Shown: positions 28,421 to 64,000, numbered from the stretch's first letter. The stretch is 64,000 nucleotides of DNA from Sulfuricurvum sp. PD_MW2 (GCF_002633015.1 NZ_NSIU01000003.1:1-64000), one strand, 5' to 3'. The notes: generated from the sequence alone by a model not told the origin. Program-made: numbers and translations.

Positions 28421-28615
28421 TAATAAAGCCCGGGCGGGCGTTTCGCAGTAGCTTTGGTTCTCAAAGCCGAATAAAGCCGCTCGAGCGTCATTACTCGGCG
28501 GCAATCTCTCACGCGTACGCGTTCAAGCGAGACCACCGGCACCGAATGACGTCTACGGGTGCGGCTTGTTGAATATGTAGAACCCTCAAAATGCGATTAG
28601 TCGCTTCACCCAGAG
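28421..28615 (-). ncRNA. ssrS: Probable 6S RNA
   Basis: A GC-rich stretch of about 195 bases with no credible frame, read on the minus strand from a TATAAT at 28627-28622. Complementary blocks nest in the order expected of a rod: GGTTCT with AGAACC (584-579 with 461-456 of the 28,000s), AAGCCGC with GCGGCTT (567-561 with 480-474), CGTCATT with AATGACG, and inner GTCTC/GAGA, leaving an unpaired bubble between the first two blocks. It ends with a GCCC-rich hairpin before TTTATT. Length, bubble and the position directly upstream of purD match what I recall of 6S RNA in Campylobacterota. The 3' end is uncertain: it may extend to the T-tract at 28331. Confidence 0.65.
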
Positions 28616-41581: not shown

Positions 41582-42037
41582 TTACAATTTTTCCCACGAA
41601 CGTTTATGAACTTGGATAGATTCTGTTGATAAATTATGATCTCTCACCGTTGCATCGATTAATACCGTAGTATCATTGCCTGTATTCTCTGCAACCCATG
41701 CACATCCTGCGGCATGTGCTCCTCTAAAACTGTAAACCAATGAAACGCTAATATCAAACATTTCGTTTCCAGCTACTGCACCATTAGAGTTATAAACAGT
41801 AATATTGAGCTGGTTCAAACACGATCCTCCGGATGTATCGATCCCCTGTGCTCTCATAAGGGCATATTCTGTTGCACTTTGTGCCAACAATTCTGCCTGG
41901 CTTCTAAGATAACCATTTGAAATAGATTTGCTTCCGATTGCAGAATTTGATAATAGCAATGTGCCGCCTAATGCGATTAGGACTACTACAAATATGGCCA
42001 AGATCATCGCAAATCCTTTACGATTAGTAGCGAACAT
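41582..42037 (-). CDS. PilX/MshP-like prepilin
   Basis: A 151-residue exported protein. The N-terminus has a class III prepilin signal: NRKG at the cleavage site followed by FAMILAIFVVVLIALGG. Position +5 is Leu, not Glu, as in PilX/GspK-type minor pilins that sit at the tip. The rest is a globular domain with a SGGSCLNQLN motif and several Cys. ATG 42037 is chosen because AAAGGATGG lies upstream; it overlaps the previous gene by 14 bases. It is the last gene of the operon that begins with the 1525-residue protein. The nearest family is MshP; identity is from organisation and the signal only. Confidence 0.72.
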   Translation of the reverse strand: MFATNRKGFAMILAIFVVVLIALGGTLLLSNSAIGSKSISNGYLRSQAELLAQSATEYALMRAQGIDTSGGSCLNQLNITVYNSNGAVAGNEMFDISVSLVYSFRGAHAAGCAWVAENTGNDTTVLIDATVRDHNLSTESIQVHKRSWEKL

Positions 42038-42959
42038 GTACCATCCTTTCACGGCATATTTGATTTGTCGAAATGCTAGAATCACTTAAGTTTTCATCCA
42101 AACCTTCCATGCATATCTTTAATGTATAAATATTTCCGACATTAGAATTCATCTTTGTATTCGAACTATCGTATAAAATCGTAAAGTGGGTCACTTTGTT
42201 CCCCAAAAGATGTGGTGTAAAAGAACTGTATCGCTCATTGTTCCATGGCTGAAAACCACTGTACATATTAAACTCGCCATTTTTGGCACGAAATGCGTAT
42301 GCCGTCCGCATGACATAGGCACGCTTAGCATTTCCGTTAATATTCAATACTCCGTTCAACGTTAAATTGTGATCTCCGTTAATCTGCGCAACTGTACGAT
42401 ACACATCATTTGTATTCGAAGCGTTTGCCCACCCAAAACGAGTACATTCATTCGTTCCCTCAGCAATCCCTTCGCTTCGAAAAATTGCAGTAGGATTATT
42501 AACATCCACCAATGGACTCATACTATTGAGTGCGGTAAAATTGCTATCCAAAGAGATTAATCTATTTCCTATGCTTGTTACATCGCTTGACCATGCAGGC
42601 AATAATCGATTTGCACCACTATTCCAATATCCCCTTTGTCCATCTGTATCTACAGCAATAAACGCAATTGTATAGTCTTTATCGGTATCGGTATTGGTCG
42701 GGATTCCATAACACCCTGTGGCATCGTTTTCATCCAAACGGATAATTGAAGAGGATACTCCGTTTTCAAAGTACTTCGAAATTTGCTCTAGCATATGATC
42801 GGCTTCAGCCACTCGTTTAGTATATTCTCCAGTTTGATAAATGCCGTTATAGTATTGACGAACTGCTTCCAATGCCAACCCGCCGACAATACCTAAAATC
42901 ACGATAACGAACAGCACTTCAATCATTGTAAATGCTTTATTGTGTTTAAGCGTTTTCAT
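42024..42959 (-). CDS. PilW/MshO-like prepilin
   Basis: A 311-residue prepilin. The signal is NKAFTMIEVLFVIVILGIV: Ala at -1, Phe at +1 and Glu at +5, the usual processing pattern. The remainder is a long soluble head with several Cys and a repeated aromatic pattern, typical in size of PilW/MshO-type minor pilins. ATG 42959 overlaps the previous stop (ATGA). The combination of PilV-, PilW- and PilX-type pilins after a large surface protein fits an initiation/tip complex that exposes the big protein. Confidence 0.78.
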   Translation of the reverse strand: MKTLKHNKAFTMIEVLFVIVILGIVGGLALEAVRQYYNGIYQTGEYTKRVAEADHMLEQISKYFENGVSSSIIRLDENDATGCYGIPTNTDTDKDYTIAFIAVDTDGQRGYWNSGANRLLPAWSSDVTSIGNRLISLDSNFTALNSMSPLVDVNNPTAIFRSEGIAEGTNECTRFGWANASNTNDVYRTVAQINGDHNLTLNGVLNINGNAKRAYVMRTAYAFRAKNGEFNMYSGFQPWNNERYSSFTPHLLGNKVTHFTILYDSSNTKMNSNVGNIYTLKICMEGLDENLSDSSISTNQICRERMVHVRY

Positions 42960-43633
42960 TCTGCAAACTTCCCGACATTCGATTTGAAAAACGTGAATGT
43001 CATATCGACATTTGGATTATTTGCGTTATTGACTCTGGCTACAATCCGTTTTAAATGGGTCTGATTTCCGGATGCAGCTGGATTCATGTTCGTCGACGAG
43101 CCCAACGTCCATGTTGCAGTTGCAACACCGTTTGCATTGGGGCCTGTCGCCAAACCAGCGTTCACATAGCTAACGCTGTAGATAATCGGAACAGTATACA
43201 CCGTTCCACTTGTTGCATTGATCTCAAGATTATACGCATTGTTATGCAATTGTTCAATTCCGCGACTCAAGTTTAAGTCCCCGTTTGCAGGTGCAGCTCC
43301 CATCCTTGGAACATTCGAAGAACATGGTATGCTGGAGTTTGGATTGCGTCGATAGAATGTCCCGCTAACGTTTCGATCGCATTGCATATCCCCCGCAATC
43401 TGCAATGGATAGAAGCTAGGTTCGCTTGAATTTTGATCCCATCGAGCCTGAGATACTTTAGTAATTTCTCCCATCATCCTCTTTAGAATATCTTCATCAA
43501 TCATCATCCCTTTTGAAGCGTTATTCGCTATATTCATCATGGATGGAATCGTGATAACACTGATTGCAATAATAACAATTGCAAAGATAAGCTCAATCAT
43601 GGCCATAGCCCTACGCATTGCTATACTTCTCAT
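42956..43633 (-). CDS. PilV/MshD-like prepilin
   Basis: A 225-residue prepilin-like protein. A basic leader (MRSIAMRRA) precedes the hydrophobic segment MAMIELIFAIVIIAI with Glu at +5 if cleavage follows the Ala of RRA. The head is rich in Asn and Ser and has a CDRN...CSS cysteine pair. The start ATG 43633 overlaps the stop of the 1525-residue gene as TAATG, so the two are translationally coupled; an ATG at 43618 is also possible. It is followed by the PilW-like gene with an ATGA overlap. It probably joins the same pseudopilin tip assembly. Confidence 0.75.
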   Translation of the reverse strand: MRSIAMRRAMAMIELIFAIVIIAISVITIPSMMNIANNASKGMMIDEDILKRMMGEITKVSQARWDQNSSEPSFYPLQIAGDMQCDRNVSGTFYRRNPNSSIPCSSNVPRMGAAPANGDLNLSRGIEQLHNNAYNLEINATSGTVYTVPIIYSVSYVNAGLATGPNANGVATATWTLGSSTNMNPAASGNQTHLKRIVARVNNANNPNVDMTFTFFKSNVGKFAE

Positions 43634-46600
43634 TATCGTGTCGCCGGCGTGTAATCATACTGTACACGTGTTTTTGACGTCGCTTTGTTAATTTTATTAC
43701 TGCGCAGTTCCACTTCGGTAGCACTTCCTGCACGACCAATATCCGGTACGATATTGATATTAAAACACGGGTGGGTTTGACAGTTCAGATTTGTTGAAGA
43801 TGGATCAATATAATCAAGTGCATTCACACCATACCACAGCCACGGATCAGTATTGATATGAGCTTTCCCACTATATGGGATATTTCCGGAACCTATTTTA
43901 GTAAAGCTGTAGGTTTCCATCCCTTGATTCGGCGGATTCATCATATCACTGTTAACTGGAAGCGCCAATGTATTGGGTGAAATAATTGTCACATCACTGT
44001 TTCCATCATTGTTATCATCATGCAATCTGTTAATGAACCACAACGGTGCATTTCGACTCGGAGCCAATACATTGCCTGCAAGCATAGGCACTTGATATAC
44101 CTCATACCATCCATTTGCAGTAAAATCAACATTTCCGAATACCCGCACATCAAGCGGATTAATACGTCCATACGCATAAGTAACATTAAAATCCATCGTT
44201 TTTGCACCCAAGGCTTGATGGGTAGCGCTCAAATCTGCCTGCATCTTACACTCGGTGGTCGAAAGACATTTGACATCAAATTCTGAGAACTGCGCGGTAA
44301 TAGGCGTTAATGGCACCGTTACATTACGATCGTAGTTCAACCGGCTTACCGTATACAAAGAACCCGCAGTACTTTTTGTAAAATTTGTATCTGCAATGGA
44401 TGTCAATTTCATGACTAACCCAGAGGTATTAATATTTGTAGCATTGCTATCATAAATTAGATTCGTTGTATTCGTATCTGAGCTATTATAATCTCTGAAA
44501 CGGATTTGGTATTTAGCCCCTTGCGGATGCGTTAAATTATTCTTACTGATCATCGACAAATTCAAATCTTTGGCATAGCAATTTTTTACAAAATTTGAGT
44601 TGACAAGATTGTCATATCCCGCTGCTTTGATATTGCCGGTTGCGCGCAAGGACATATCCATACTGTCATCTCTGCTGATTTTTGACATATAAGAAAATCC
44701 TTTTCCACCTGATGCAATCGTAGTAGGAAGAATACCGGTACCAAAACCGATAGTACTCATATCAAATTTATACGGATGAAATGTCAACAGATAATCTCTG
44801 TATTTAAGACCGGTATCAACATTGTCATGGGTACTGCTGATATCGCATCCAACCAGATTACCTAACGTTGTTCCGGCTAATGTTACAGCAGATGACTGCA
44901 TAGGAACATCATGACTGTTTAGTCCGCACTCTGCACCGGAGAGAAAATGGGTGCCGCTCTGATGCAATTGCTTCATAGAATCCCAATCCACAGCCGTCCA
45001 TGTTTTGTCGATAACATTCAAACGGTATTCACCCACTTGAGACAAATTCGCTTCCGAATTAACCGTACCGTTTATCACATTTATATTTTGAGGTTTACTG
45101 TTGATATCGTTGCACCCAGTTTTTGTACTGGAAGGTTCCCAGACGAGGGTAATATTATAATCTTGTCCTCCCGTTCCGAAGTATCGAGTATACCCTGGGC
45201 TTGCGGCATTTCCAAGATGATTTGTTGCATTGATATCAACTCCATACGTATATCCGCTAGCGACATCGATTCTTCCTGTGTTAGGAACCAATACACCGTT
45301 ATAGCCTGGAGCAAAAACTTGTGCTACTGTATGATTGGTTTGATTCATATCTTTTAACGTTACGGTATAGCTTTCTGGACGAATCGCAAAATTATCTCTG
45401 GAACACAAAACTTGCGTTCTCGCTCCATATAAACACTCCAGACAGATAGCAACATCTCTGTATGTACTGTGATTTCCATTATCTGAACATGCAACCGATG
45501 TTAAATTAGTCGTTCCGCTATTGTTTGGATTGATAACATATTGCTGACAGTGCGGATATACTTGATGAACATTTGAAAAGTTATCGATACGAATCCCCTG
45601 ACTGGTTTGCTGAATATGAATCAGTGAGTCGTTTTGATCAGCTAAAGTATTAAAAGTTACCCTAAAAGCTGCATTCGGTGTTGCCGTTTTGAAAAAATCT
45701 GATGCCAACGTAATAGGTGATGGTTGCCCTGTAATAACATCTGATACCATACCGTTGTTAATCGCATTTTGGATGGTTGCAGCATTAAAACTAACCTGAG
45801 AAACATTATTCTCAAAGCTCATCCATACACGCGGGCTAATAGCACTCGATGGTTCTCGACATGCCGCGTCAACATCATGGAAGGGACTCGCATCTATCAT
45901 CTCTACTGCAACTATCGTTGTAACAGCTTTTGGCTTATCCAGATTTGCAGGTTCAAAAGATGCAATACGAAAATTCCCCGGGCGTTTTACCACTTGTGTG
46001 GTCAAATCGTAATATTTTTTTCCGCTGGTATTATTTGCATTGGTAGCACTGTCATACAGTCCTGCATCAACAACACTAAATATCCCCCATTCAGGAGTGT
46101 AACTGAAGTTCTCTCCCGAACACATTGGCAACCCTGTTCCACCGATCGTAGCGCTATAAGGGAGTGTCAAACTTGTCCCGTTTGCTAAGGGAATGACTAA
46201 ATCATACGAAAAACTTCCCCGTATCGGTGCTCTAATACTTCCAATGCGTTGCGGAATTAATGAATAATAGGTATATGCATACCCTTTTCCTCCGATATTT
46301 CCAAGAGGTATATTATTAATGTTCGTATCACTGACACTAACAGGCCATGCTGCATCTGTTTTATAGGTAGGAGTATACTGATTAGGATATGTTACTCCGA
46401 CACTGTCTCGTTTATATATTACTTGAGTACTGTTGATATCTGAGATATTGAGAAATACATTGTTAGCACTCACATCCGAATTTTCCTGATTACGGATATA
46501 TAACCTCACAGCGATATCCGATGTATTAGGTAATACACCAGTGATATACGGCATTGCTGTTCCATTGTTTTCTTCCGTAAACGGAAGTCCGTTTTGTTCA

Positions 46601-48210
46601 TATCCATAGTCATAACAAAAAGATGGTGTATACAAATCGGTCGAAAATGCGATAACCCCTGGAGTTGATTGATCTCCATTGCTATTACTGAATGTAGCTT
46701 CCAATTTCAACGATGTTGTACTCTGATTGTTTTTCATATAACTTGAAACATTAAACGTATCCAAGTCCATTCCAGGATAATAGCTGATTGCACTATTAAT
46801 AGGGCTACCATCAATTGAAACGGATCCGTTAAATGGATTATTTGCAGGATTCAAGGTATTTGAGACGGTTTGATACGCATTTCCAGCATTTGCATTTTGA
46901 ATATAGAATGCGTCTCTTTGAATAAGCTTTTCTCCTCCTGAAGCATAAAAAAGCATTTCAGCATTCACAGTACCTGATTTTGGCGTTAAAAAACCACTGA
47001 TAGGAATGACAACATTCGATGTTTCATATCCGGTTACAGGTAGTGGAATCATTGCATCGAAACCATTGAATACATTGATATTTTTCAACTTAGTACCCGA
47101 TGGCATGCTTGCCGCATCGTATTTGTATACAACAATTAAAGACCAGTTCCCCCAAAAACCAAATTTAATCCCATCATATTCGGCACCAGGTCCTACATAT
47201 AAATATGAATACCAATCTTGTCCGCTGTTAGCTTTAATATTTCCAACAGTAAATGACTGTGATGTTCCATTAACCAAATGCGATTTTACGAGGGATGTAA
47301 CATCTTTGTACCCTTGATAAAAAGAGCGAAATCCGCCGTCTTGACCTGTTCCATCTCCCCAAAAATCATGGTACCAGACTCTGTCTGCACTTAGGTCTTG
47401 AGTTGTCCCATCAGGAAGACGAAAAGATACATTGCCTCTCTCCTGAACTTTCGTTGATGACGTGTAATGTGCCGCATCTTGATCCGCAATATGCCCTTGC
47501 CAGTATAACCCTGCCCATTGTATTTCTACACCGGTAATATTGGCCGGCAAAGTCAAAATAGACGATGCTGAATTTAATGTCATCGACCCTTCGTTTTTAT
47601 AGATTACATTAGAATCATATAAATAACCATTGTAATTATTGTTACATCCACCAGAACCATTATTCTGGCATAAAACAGAATTACCGGTAGACGTAAAATC
47701 CCCAAACAGCTTTAGTCCGTCATTTCCAAATACAGGGCTAAAGGGATTTTCATGCAAAAGGGCATGCCCTTTGACTGGTTTATTAGCACTAAACGTGTAT
47801 GAAGTGTCTTGATTCGAAGCACCGCCGACCAAATAAAGATAATATGTAGTTCCTGCAGTAACATTAATTGTTGCAGATTGGGAAGAGCCACCTGCCATTA
47901 CTCCTGAAGTCCATACAGATGTTGCGCTACATGTTGCATCACTGTATAAAGTAGCAGTTAATTGACGGTTTGATGAATTATTTGTAACAGATAGATTAAT
48001 TTGTCCACCGACTGGATTTGTAATCGTATAATAATCGGCATCGTCGCTCTGAACAGTACCTGAATGATTATTATAAGTTGATCCACTTGTTGCATTCCAT
48101 GTCCCCATAGAACTAGCAGGTGTAGGACAAACGCCCCAGCTTTGAACGGATAAGGCTATCAACCATCCACATACAGCTATCCATCTCAAAAAAAGTTTAT
48201 TGATAATCAT
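43633..48210 (-). CDS. Giant exported MshQ-like surface protein
   Basis: A 1525-residue exported protein with a signal peptide cleaved after about residue 27 (SVQSWG). The N-terminal 130 residues are a pre-peptidase C-like beta domain (YYTITNPVGGQINLSV, YYLYLVGG). Next comes a DUF3344-like domain of about 350 residues (GVEIQWAGLYWQGHI, YKDVTSLVKSHLVNG, WGNWSLIVVYKY) found in large bacterial adhesins. Many Ig-like, Asn/Thr-rich segments follow, ending in a conserved C-terminal region with numerous Cys. No LPXTG or PEP-CTERM anchor is visible. It is the first gene of an operon with three minor pilins, so it may be the tip adhesin of a type IV pilus, as proposed for MshQ/PilY1-type proteins. Its composition suggests beta structure throughout. 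Confidence 0.8.
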   Translation of the reverse strand: MIINKLFLRWIAVCGWLIALSVQSWGVCPTPASSMGTWNATSGSTYNNHSGTVQSDDADYYTITNPVGGQINLSVTNNSSNRQLTATLYSDATCSATSVWTSGVMAGGSSQSATINVTAGTTYYLYLVGGASNQDTSYTFSANKPVKGHALLHENPFSPVFGNDGLKLFGDFTSTGNSVLCQNNGSGGCNNNYNGYLYDSNVIYKNEGSMTLNSASSILTLPANITGVEIQWAGLYWQGHIADQDAAHYTSSTKVQERGNVSFRLPDGTTQDLSADRVWYHDFWGDGTGQDGGFRSFYQGYKDVTSLVKSHLVNGTSQSFTVGNIKANSGQDWYSYLYVGPGAEYDGIKFGFWGNWSLIVVYKYDAASMPSGTKLKNINVFNGFDAMIPLPVTGYETSNVVIPISGFLTPKSGTVNAEMLFYASGGEKLIQRDAFYIQNANAGNAYQTVSNTLNPANNPFNGSVSIDGSPINSAISYYPGMDLDTFNVSSYMKNNQSTTSLKLEATFSNSNGDQSTPGVIAFSTDLYTPSFCYDYGYEQNGLPFTEENNGTAMPYITGVLPNTSDIAVRLYIRNQENSDVSANNVFLNISDINSTQVIYKRDSVGVTYPNQYTPTYKTDAAWPVSVSDTNINNIPLGNIGGKGYAYTYYSLIPQRIGSIRAPIRGSFSYDLVIPLANGTSLTLPYSATIGGTGLPMCSGENFSYTPEWGIFSVVDAGLYDSATNANNTSGKKYYDLTTQVVKRPGNFRIASFEPANLDKPKAVTTIVAVEMIDASPFHDVDAACREPSSAISPRVWMSFENNVSQVSFNAATIQNAINNGMVSDVITGQPSPITLASDFFKTATPNAAFRVTFNTLADQNDSLIHIQQTSQGIRIDNFSNVHQVYPHCQQYVINPNNSGTTNLTSVACSDNGNHSTYRDVAICLECLYGARTQVLCSRDNFAIRPESYTVTLKDMNQTNHTVAQVFAPGYNGVLVPNTGRIDVASGYTYGVDINATNHLGNAASPGYTRYFGTGGQDYNITLVWEPSSTKTGCNDINSKPQNINVINGTVNSEANLSQVGEYRLNVIDKTWTAVDWDSMKQLHQSGTHFLSGAECGLNSHDVPMQSSAVTLAGTTLGNLVGCDISSTHDNVDTGLKYRDYLLTFHPYKFDMSTIGFGTGILPTTIASGGKGFSYMSKISRDDSMDMSLRATGNIKAAGYDNLVNSNFVKNCYAKDLNLSMISKNNLTHPQGAKYQIRFRDYNSSDTNTTNLIYDSNATNINTSGLVMKLTSIADTNFTKSTAGSLYTVSRLNYDRNVTVPLTPITAQFSEFDVKCLSTTECKMQADLSATHQALGAKTMDFNVTYAYGRINPLDVRVFGNVDFTANGWYEVYQVPMLAGNVLAPSRNAPLWFINRLHDDNNDGNSDVTIISPNTLALPVNSDMMNPPNQGMETYSFTKIGSGNIPYSGKAHINTDPWLWYGVNALDYIDPSSTNLNCQTHPCFNINIVPDIGRAGSATEVELRSNKINKATSKTRVQYDYTPATR

Positions 48211-48494: not shown

Positions 48495-49031
48495 ATGAAT
48501 ATCTCTCTCGTCGGACGCCATATCGAGCTCAGCGATGCCATTAAAGATCATCTGATGCACTCTATCGACACACTTGAAAAATATCATCTTGATCTCATCA
48601 GTGTAAACGCTGTTGCAAGTTCAAATGAGCGCAAAAAAGGCGTAAGTATTGAGTTTACTATCAATGTTGCCGGAAAAAATACTATCGTTATTACCCAACG
48701 TGACGATGATCTCTATGCCGCTATCGACATCGCGATTGATCGTGCCCAAAAAGCGCTCCGCCGTCTCCATGACCGATTATCCGATCATAAAAACGAGGGA
48801 TTGAACGAAGCAAAATTGGCTGCAGCACAAAAAGTGAATCTTCACGAAGCAGAAGAAGCGATGGAAGATGAAATCGTCCCTGCCGAACCAATTCTTTTCA
48901 AGCCTCAAGAGGTTGCCGAAGTGCTAGAAAAGCTCAAAGAGAGCGGAAAAATATTTGAAGTTTTTTATGATAATGATGGAAAAATGCGCGTTTTGTACAA
49001 ACGTACCGATGGAAAATTTGGATTGTATTAA
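48495..49031 (+). CDS. hpf: Long ribosome hibernation promoting factor
   Basis: A 178-residue HPF of the long type, which joins two 70S ribosomes into 100S particles in stationary phase. The N-terminal domain (MNISLVGRHIELSDAIKDHL, then ALRRLHDRLSDHKNEG) is the ribosome-binding part. The C-terminal domain (about 120-178) carries IVPAEPILFKPQEVAEVLEKL and VFYDNDGKMRVLYKRTDGKFGLY, the dimerisation module. AAGGTGG precedes ATG 48495 and a near-consensus promoter lies upstream. It overlaps the recG stop by four bases. Confidence 0.95.
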   Translation: MNISLVGRHIELSDAIKDHLMHSIDTLEKYHLDLISVNAVASSNERKKGVSIEFTINVAGKNTIVITQRDDDLYAAIDIAIDRAQKALRRLHDRLSDHKNEGLNEAKLAAAQKVNLHEAEEAMEDEIVPAEPILFKPQEVAEVLEKLKESGKIFEVFYDNDGKMRVLYKRTDGKFGLY

Positions 49032-63459: not shown

Positions 63460-63482
63460 ACCTTTTTTTACTTCTCTTTTTT
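63453..63482. terminator. Bidirectional terminator between proC and the PilO-like gene
   Basis: GAAGTAAA (63453-63460) pairs with TTTACTTC (63467-63474) over a CCTTTT loop, with T-rich tracts following (TCTTTTTT on the plus strand). It overlaps both stop codons and serves the two convergent genes. Confidence 0.75.
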
Positions 63483-64000
63483 ATGTTCTGAATCTGTTTT
63501 ATGCGGCGGAGTGAACGGTGAAATAATCTCCGGTTTTTCTTCTGCGGTCTTGTTTGTTTTCTCTACCGGTTTTTCCGAATGTTTAGTATTTTCATTTTTC
63601 TTTGCACCCTTCTCTTGTTCGGAAGGTTTATTATGCACTTTCATCGTAAAACTCGAACGGATTTTATCCCCGTCACGTTCAAAATGAATTGGGAAATTAA
63701 CCCCGATCACCCACTCACTCTTATTGATATTTTCTAAAAACTCATAGAAACTTGTAGGTGATGTAATCTTCGATGTTGCATTCACTTCGTATACTTTAAA
63801 TGACCCATTTGCCTCTGTACTGGTCATTTCCGTCAAATACAAATCGGTAAACTCTTTTTTATAAAGACGTTCAAAACGACCCGGATCAAATACTTTATCA
63901 AACGCACCGATCGTATGTTTATGCTGTTTTTTCAAATCATCCAGACGATTTTTCATGTTATCAAAACGATTTTGCGTAAGTTCAAACTCTTGAAACTCTT
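63468..64000 (-). CDS. PilO-like pilus protein, N-terminus missing
   Basis: Frame open to the right edge, 177 codons seen. The visible N-terminal part is a coiled coil (EFELTQNRFDNMKNRLDDLKKQHKHTIGAF in parts). A compact domain follows: FYEFLENINKSEWVIGVNFPIHFERDGDKI, then a strand SSFTMKVH, in the style of a PilO/GspM ferredoxin-like fold. The C-terminal 50 residues are a Lys/Glu/Pro-rich disordered tail. PilO links the inner-membrane platform of the type IV pilus to PilN/PilP. The assignment is by pattern; the start and membrane anchor lie outside the window. Confidence 0.55.
   Translation of the reverse strand, partial: EFQEFELTQNRFDNMKNRLDDLKKQHKHTIGAFDKVFDPGRFERLYKKEFTDLYLTEMTSTEANGSFKVYEVNATSKITSPTSFYEFLENINKSEWVIGVNFPIHFERDGDKIRSSFTMKVHNKPSEQEKGAKKNENTKHSEKPVEKTNKTAEEKPEIISPFTPPHKTDSEHKKEK

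Follow-up and report, generated by a model that had tools for sequence, protein, structure and literature searches.

The four overlapping genes at positions 41,582 to 48,210 of the window, the 64,000-nucleotide stretch of Sulfuricurvum sp. PD_MW2 analysed here (GCF_002633015.1, NZ_NSIU01000003.1:1-64000), probably encode the tip complex of a retractable type IV pilus of the MSH (MSHA-like) type. In the proposed complex, prepilins resembling MshD/PilV, MshO/PilW and MshP/PilX would together make up the subcomplex that initiates the pilus and serves as its tip; the PilX-like prepilin, which lacks Glu+5, would be outermost. The last 150–300 residues of a giant exported protein related to MshQ would dock onto these prepilins, and its N-terminal head of roughly 1200 residues would be displayed at the pilus end as a putative adhesin. 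Extension and retraction would fall to PilT and to an MSH/Cts machine encoded apart from the operon (secretin, platform protein, extension ATPase). The picture of a plug seated on the PilX-like tip pilin with the head directed outward is drawn by analogy to PilY1, of which the variable N-terminus faces outward and the conserved C-terminus sits on PilX, itself lacking Glu5 (PMC7541494). An earlier note on this DNA had already read the genes as a pilus-tip adhesin module; this reading is supported by the linkage of the giant to the pilins, by its relation to DUF6701 and by the presence of an MSH-type machine, with adhesion and docking as its predicted parts.

The operon and its products

The operon occupies one strand and is flanked by a divergent gene; the features are as follows.

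43633..48210, minus strand: giant exported protein related to MshQ/DUF6701, gene 1 of the operon, 1525 aa (ORF read, relatives, profile match)
47760..48210, minus strand: signal peptide and variable N-terminal module (hydrophobic N-terminus by direct reading)
46621..47736, minus strand: exchangeable head domain, beta-rich, residues about 159–530 (identity pattern; AF2 model)
46141..46635, minus strand: Ig-like beta-sandwich, residues about 526–690 (fold comparison)
43633..44533, minus strand: C-terminal about 150–300 residues, putative pilin-docking end (co-variation with the pilins; part alike among tandem giants)
42956..43633, minus strand: PilV/MshD-type minor prepilin, 225 aa, Glu+5 kept (direct reading; 15 relatives aligned)
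42024..42959, minus strand: PilW/MshO-type minor prepilin, 311 aa, Glu+5 kept (PF07963 and TIGR02532)
41582..42037, minus strand: PilX/MshP-type minor prepilin, about 151 aa, Leu+5 (direct reading; 8 relatives aligned)
48495..49031, plus strand: ribosome hibernation factor (S30AE), divergent neighbour outside the system (PF02482; beside the operon in most loci)

The four ORFs stand where the earlier note had placed them, and all junctions overlap through stop and start codons. The giant runs into the PilV-like gene at a TAATG at 43633 (1-bp overlap), the PilV-like and PilW-like genes share an ATGA (42956–42959), and the PilX-like and PilW-like genes overlap by 14 bp, the start of the former most likely being the ATG at 42037 rather than the GTG at 42085. 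The giant itself starts with an ATG that is preceded by a GGGGGA ribosome site. An Rfam search upstream of the giant found no riboswitch, and control by a c-di-GMP riboswitch is thus unsupported. Elsewhere in the window, a purD RNA motif (RF01069, 76.3 bits) lies at 28428–28556 on the minus strand.

Two of the prepilin motifs, ARRA/MAMIE and NKA/FTMIE, carry Glu+5, and the PilW-type protein exceeds the cut-offs of both N_methyl PF07963 (27 bits, cut-off 21.2) and TIGR02532 (22.7, cut-off 16.3). The motif of the PilX-like prepilin, KG/FAMILA, has Leu at this position, and the eight aligned relatives all have Leu, Met or Thr and never Glu, in agreement with the earlier observation that the last prepilin lacks Glu+5.

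The first gene was described earlier as encoding an Asn/Thr-rich protein of 1525 residues, and both the ORF and the composition match this description (Asn 9.7%, Thr 9.2%, Ser 9.8%; 21 Cys; hydrophobic N-terminus). The window giant gave no convincing model match in Pfam, and a PDB sequence search with it found nothing; a PPC-like domain is weakly indicated at residues 57–127 (PF04151, 18.8 bits, below the cut-off of 25.9). A DUF3344-like domain had also been proposed. PF11824 found no match in the window protein, but the proposal retains limited support from two relatives (G063, G108) that score just above the cut-off of 27.2 bits at the head position (29.4 and 28.9 bits). The AF2 model of residues 145–690 is fair (pLDDT 72); that of the core (residues 531–1525) was discarded at pLDDT 44. 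The Ig-like part resembles Ig domains of surface adhesins and pilins with middling scores (VIA Z 9–11) that indicate a common fold only, and Foldseek with the 145–690 model returned TM values of about 0.3 or less. As the fold matches of this model are only middling, no function is inferred from them.

The relation of the core to a named family was established through relatives. DUF6701 (PF20419), which we take to be the MshQ domain, has no Pfam match on the window giant itself, but exceeds its cut-off in 8 of the 200 genomes scanned, and in several of these the match falls in an ORF that also carries the giant core; in the relative at locus L120 it reaches 83.6 bits. Comparison of the window family with the DUF6701-positive relatives by hhalign extended over 734 columns at a probability of 100 and an E-value of 5.9e-49. 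Because ORFs positive for DUF6701 carry the giant core and the profiles match at this level, the core is, as judged from sequence, a divergent relative of DUF6701/MshQ, and the MshQ-like label of the earlier note is upheld by way of these relatives.

A candidate pilus machine and the Campylobacter jejuni competence locus

Machine genes were read from targeted stretches of the genome. The machine was sought first beside the operon and was found on another contig (C29), where an MSH-type cluster comprises an MshL secretin (L051:13600-15312; TIGR02519 equivalog, 261.2 bits, cut-off 250.2), an AAA ATPase, a TPR protein, PilO, a PilB-type ATPase and a PilC-type platform protein. The earlier expectation that the machine is encoded in the same genome is thus borne out by this cluster, but not by the PilO-like gene near the right edge of the window (63468 onward), for which no Pfam match was found. 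The trio to which this gene belongs (219, 175 and 344 aa; window 63468–63956 and L050:3468-5682) is coupled and has a PilMNO-like layout, but was set aside as PilMNO as it has no Pfam support. In MSH systems, which have already been predicted in Epsilonproteobacteria, the mandatory components are MshL, the extension ATPase MshE, the platform protein MshG, the AAA ATPase MshM and the major pilin MshA, possibly as a loner (PMC6668835). The MshL cluster holds PilB/GspE-type and PilC/GspF-type genes in the roles of MshE and MshG, both scoring below generic equivalog cut-offs, and the AAA_22 protein adjoining MshL, collinear with CtsP, is a candidate for MshM.

Two PilT-family genes lie elsewhere in the same genome. 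Across 200 genomes, PilT was present in 78/78 giant-bearing and in 23/122 giant-less genomes (Fisher p 5e-35, phylogeny ignored), with PilT called at E < 1e-120, where the two modes of the scores are separated. Some of the 23 hold a giant that the core profile missed, as illustrated by two PilT-positive genomes with a 1707-aa ORF ahead of the pilins (G072) or a giant-like ORF after HPF (G221). A second cluster, T2SS- or competence-like, with a secretin, an ATPase, a platform protein and several prepilins, lies on contig C23 (L052:7623-15868) and could serve the operon in place of the MSH-type machine. On the same stretch, three flagellin genes in tandem, each of about 492 aa and sharing the same N-terminus, were observed (L052:2735-7524).

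The C29 machine is also collinear with the cts operon (ctsRDPXEF) of a C. jejuni-type genome (identity 43% for CtsE and 31% for MshL/CtsD), in which ctsE (519), ctsX (195) and ctsP (202) have the lengths given in PMC8308473. In this genus, FliW and ProC are followed by a PilV-like gene of 98–106 aa, a PilW-like gene and a PilX-like gene, and neither giant nor PilT was found. Published annotation places proC at cj1076 and ctsT, of 100 aa and among the genes associated with natural transformation, at cj1077 (PMC8308473); at loci L147 and L148, a ProC of 243 aa is followed by a gene of 100 aa, matching the published lengths. Since the triad directly follows proC with these lengths, ctsT and the next two genes would be the adhesin-less counterpart of the pilin triad, as their position and a weak similarity of profiles suggest; the PilV-like member scores 12–26 bits in the C. 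jejuni type, and its orthology is mainly positional.

The collinearity of the machine and the occurrence of the triad at the ctsT position both favour the idea that the module serves mainly for DNA uptake. The giant would then cap a competence pilus at its outer end, where DNA or particles are caught, and adhesion would be a secondary matter. We consider this unlikely, as the C. jejuni-type genus has retained both triad and machine but has neither giant nor PilT, such that the giant is dispensable for DNA uptake there, and as some giants among the relatives bear adhesin-type or lectin domains (H_lectin, cadherin, Big_9).

A type II secretion pseudopilus, in which the pilins would be GspI, GspJ and GspK and the giant an exported substrate that is released and not displayed, follows the same three-pilin logic. 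A PilX-like protein without Glu+5 suits GspK as well, GspK is its best NCBIfam match, albeit a weak one (17 bits against a cut-off of 130), and PilY1 has been likened to a T2SS substrate (PMC7541494). The cut-offs of the GspK and GspH equivalogs are nevertheless far off, no GspI or GspJ model matches, and the presence of PilT in all 78 giant-bearing genomes together with an MSH-type secretin and the retraction ATPases of this genome points to a retractable pilus, making a pseudopilus very improbable.

Linkage across the Campylobacterota and exchange of heads

The closest named relative is a Sulfuricurvum MAG (79% identity), and the giant is present in 45 of 60 relatives. Searched with a core profile, 166 of 397 Campylobacterota genomes, from 34 of 68 genera, gave a match, and with a PilX profile 254 genomes did. 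Among the matches listed in both searches, that is, the 107 listed giant matches whose genome also has a PilX match, PilX lies 1.4–2.1 kb downstream in the same orientation in 105; in the remaining two, giant and PilX are on separate contigs. Co-occurrence of the giant with pilins in other genomes, on which the earlier note had staked its reading, is therefore upheld, and conservation of the operon across the phylum excludes a chance association. About 40 loci scored with profiles made here show the giant followed by PilV, PilW and PilX with few exceptions. Some genomes have giants without adjoining pilins (L059, L082) or away from them (L161), or pilins without a giant (L128). In Sulfuricurvum, the operon has HPF/RecG on one side and a response regulator/histidine kinase pair on the other; in Sulfurimonas, Sulfurospirillum and further families, it is bordered by Lon-BamD-FliW and HPF-RecG.

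Several variants were observed alongside. Rearranged or orphan copies, with the giant after the pilins or beside the response regulator without intervening pilins, occur in genomes G032 (L059) and G007 (L087 and L072). Giants of about 4079, 3003 and 2300 residues precede the same pilins in other families (L079 of G039, L084 and L085, respectively). In genomes G353 and G221 (L126 and L127), BamD precedes the pilins without an intervening giant, and a giant-like ORF is found beyond HPF instead. In MAGs, giant and histidine kinase genes are frame-split at L037:1-4053 and L060:10451-13374, probably through sequencing errors or as pseudogenes.

The two ends of the giant behave differently. The window head (residues 159–530) is 78% identical to that of a Sulfurimonas giant and 65–68% identical to those of Sulfurospirillum giants, but only 34–38% identical to those of nearer Sulfuricurvum relatives, whose cores are 67–76% identical. 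At L060 and L064, the whole operon has been replaced, with HPF and RecG still 86–94% identical. The last 150 residues, on the other hand, co-vary with pilin distance (partial r 0.88 over 22 Sulfuricurvum loci, RecG controlled), compared with 0.59 for the next 150 residues, about 0.4 for other parts of the giant, 0.00 for the downstream response regulator (at 90% identity a conserved and hence weak control) and 0.25 for the histidine kinase (76% identity); a wider locus set shows the same contrast. Some of the co-variation could arise because the giant's end is physically linked to PilV, although linkage alone would be expected to act also across the other side of the pilins, where the response regulator lies. 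That the giant is itself secreted or surface-located and has no more than an operon in common with the pilins, as the few giants away from pilins (L059, L082, L161) might suggest, is hardly credible given the near-complete linkage and the co-variation of the giant's end, which the adjoining response regulator lacks.

Genome G063 carries tandem giants (L136:4772-15361) whose 3' ends are 99% identical over 2341 bp and whose heads have diverged, with an apparent truncated PilV start between them; this reads as a recent head-exchange event. Tandem giants recur in unrelated genomes (L155, L156, L157, L158 and L159), and in those of L155 and L158 nucleotide likeness is confined to the last 558 and 252 bp, respectively. 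The common reading of these patterns is that the giant consists of a constant plug and exchangeable heads. A wider proposal, in which our confidence stops somewhat short of an even balance, is that in the Campylobacterota the three pilins form a conserved socket for interchangeable giant adhesins, with heads swapped across genera and tandem alternatives sharing a common C-terminal plug, such that one recombination event could direct the pilus to a new target. On this view, the C. jejuni transformation locus (ctsT and the two following genes) would be this socket, having lost both the adhesin and retraction.

Relation to known pilus systems and significance

The closest known arrangement is mshD-mshO-mshP-mshQ of the MSHA systems of Vibrio, Shewanella and Aeromonas, which likewise combine three minor pilins and a large MshQ-type protein with an MshL-type secretin, PilT retraction and an MshQ that differs in length among strains (PMC7439477). 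The operon described here differs in that the giant gene is first, whereas the Vibrio order runs from mshB to mshQ with Q at the end (PMC4624765), confirming the earlier statement that the order is unlike that of Vibrio msh. It is furthermore unlinked from its presumed machine, the giant has diverged too far in sequence to reach the Pfam threshold, heads are variable, and giants may stand in tandem. MshQ has been termed a putative MSHA adhesin, and mshQ loss reduces surface MSHA in Vibrio (PMC7096442), which fits an initiation role for an MshQ-type protein as well. PilY1 with PilV, PilW and PilX of type IVa pili offers a second likeness, being a soluble protein with a variable N-terminus and a conserved C-terminus that forms a tip and priming complex with a PilX lacking Glu+5 (PMC7541494). 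The C-terminal beta-propeller of PilY1 (PF05567) has no match in the window giant, nor in 200 genomes, where the controls were silent as well.

By sequence, then, the operon is an MshDOPQ-like tip module marked by a reversed gene order, by heads that are exchanged and by a counterpart at the C. jejuni competence locus. MshQ and the minor pilins of MSHA have names but are poorly understood, with MshQ, MshM and MshF listed as MSHA components without assigned function (PMC9815625), and the exchanged heads and constant end seen across the phylum mark a candidate target-binding part and a candidate pilin-binding part. The tie between ctsT and a pilus-tip operon suggests that DNA uptake and adhesion by a retractable pilus go back to a common origin. 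As the operon occurs in many of the sampled free-living sulfur-oxidising Campylobacterota, it may play a part in how these bacteria attach in sulfidic habitats.
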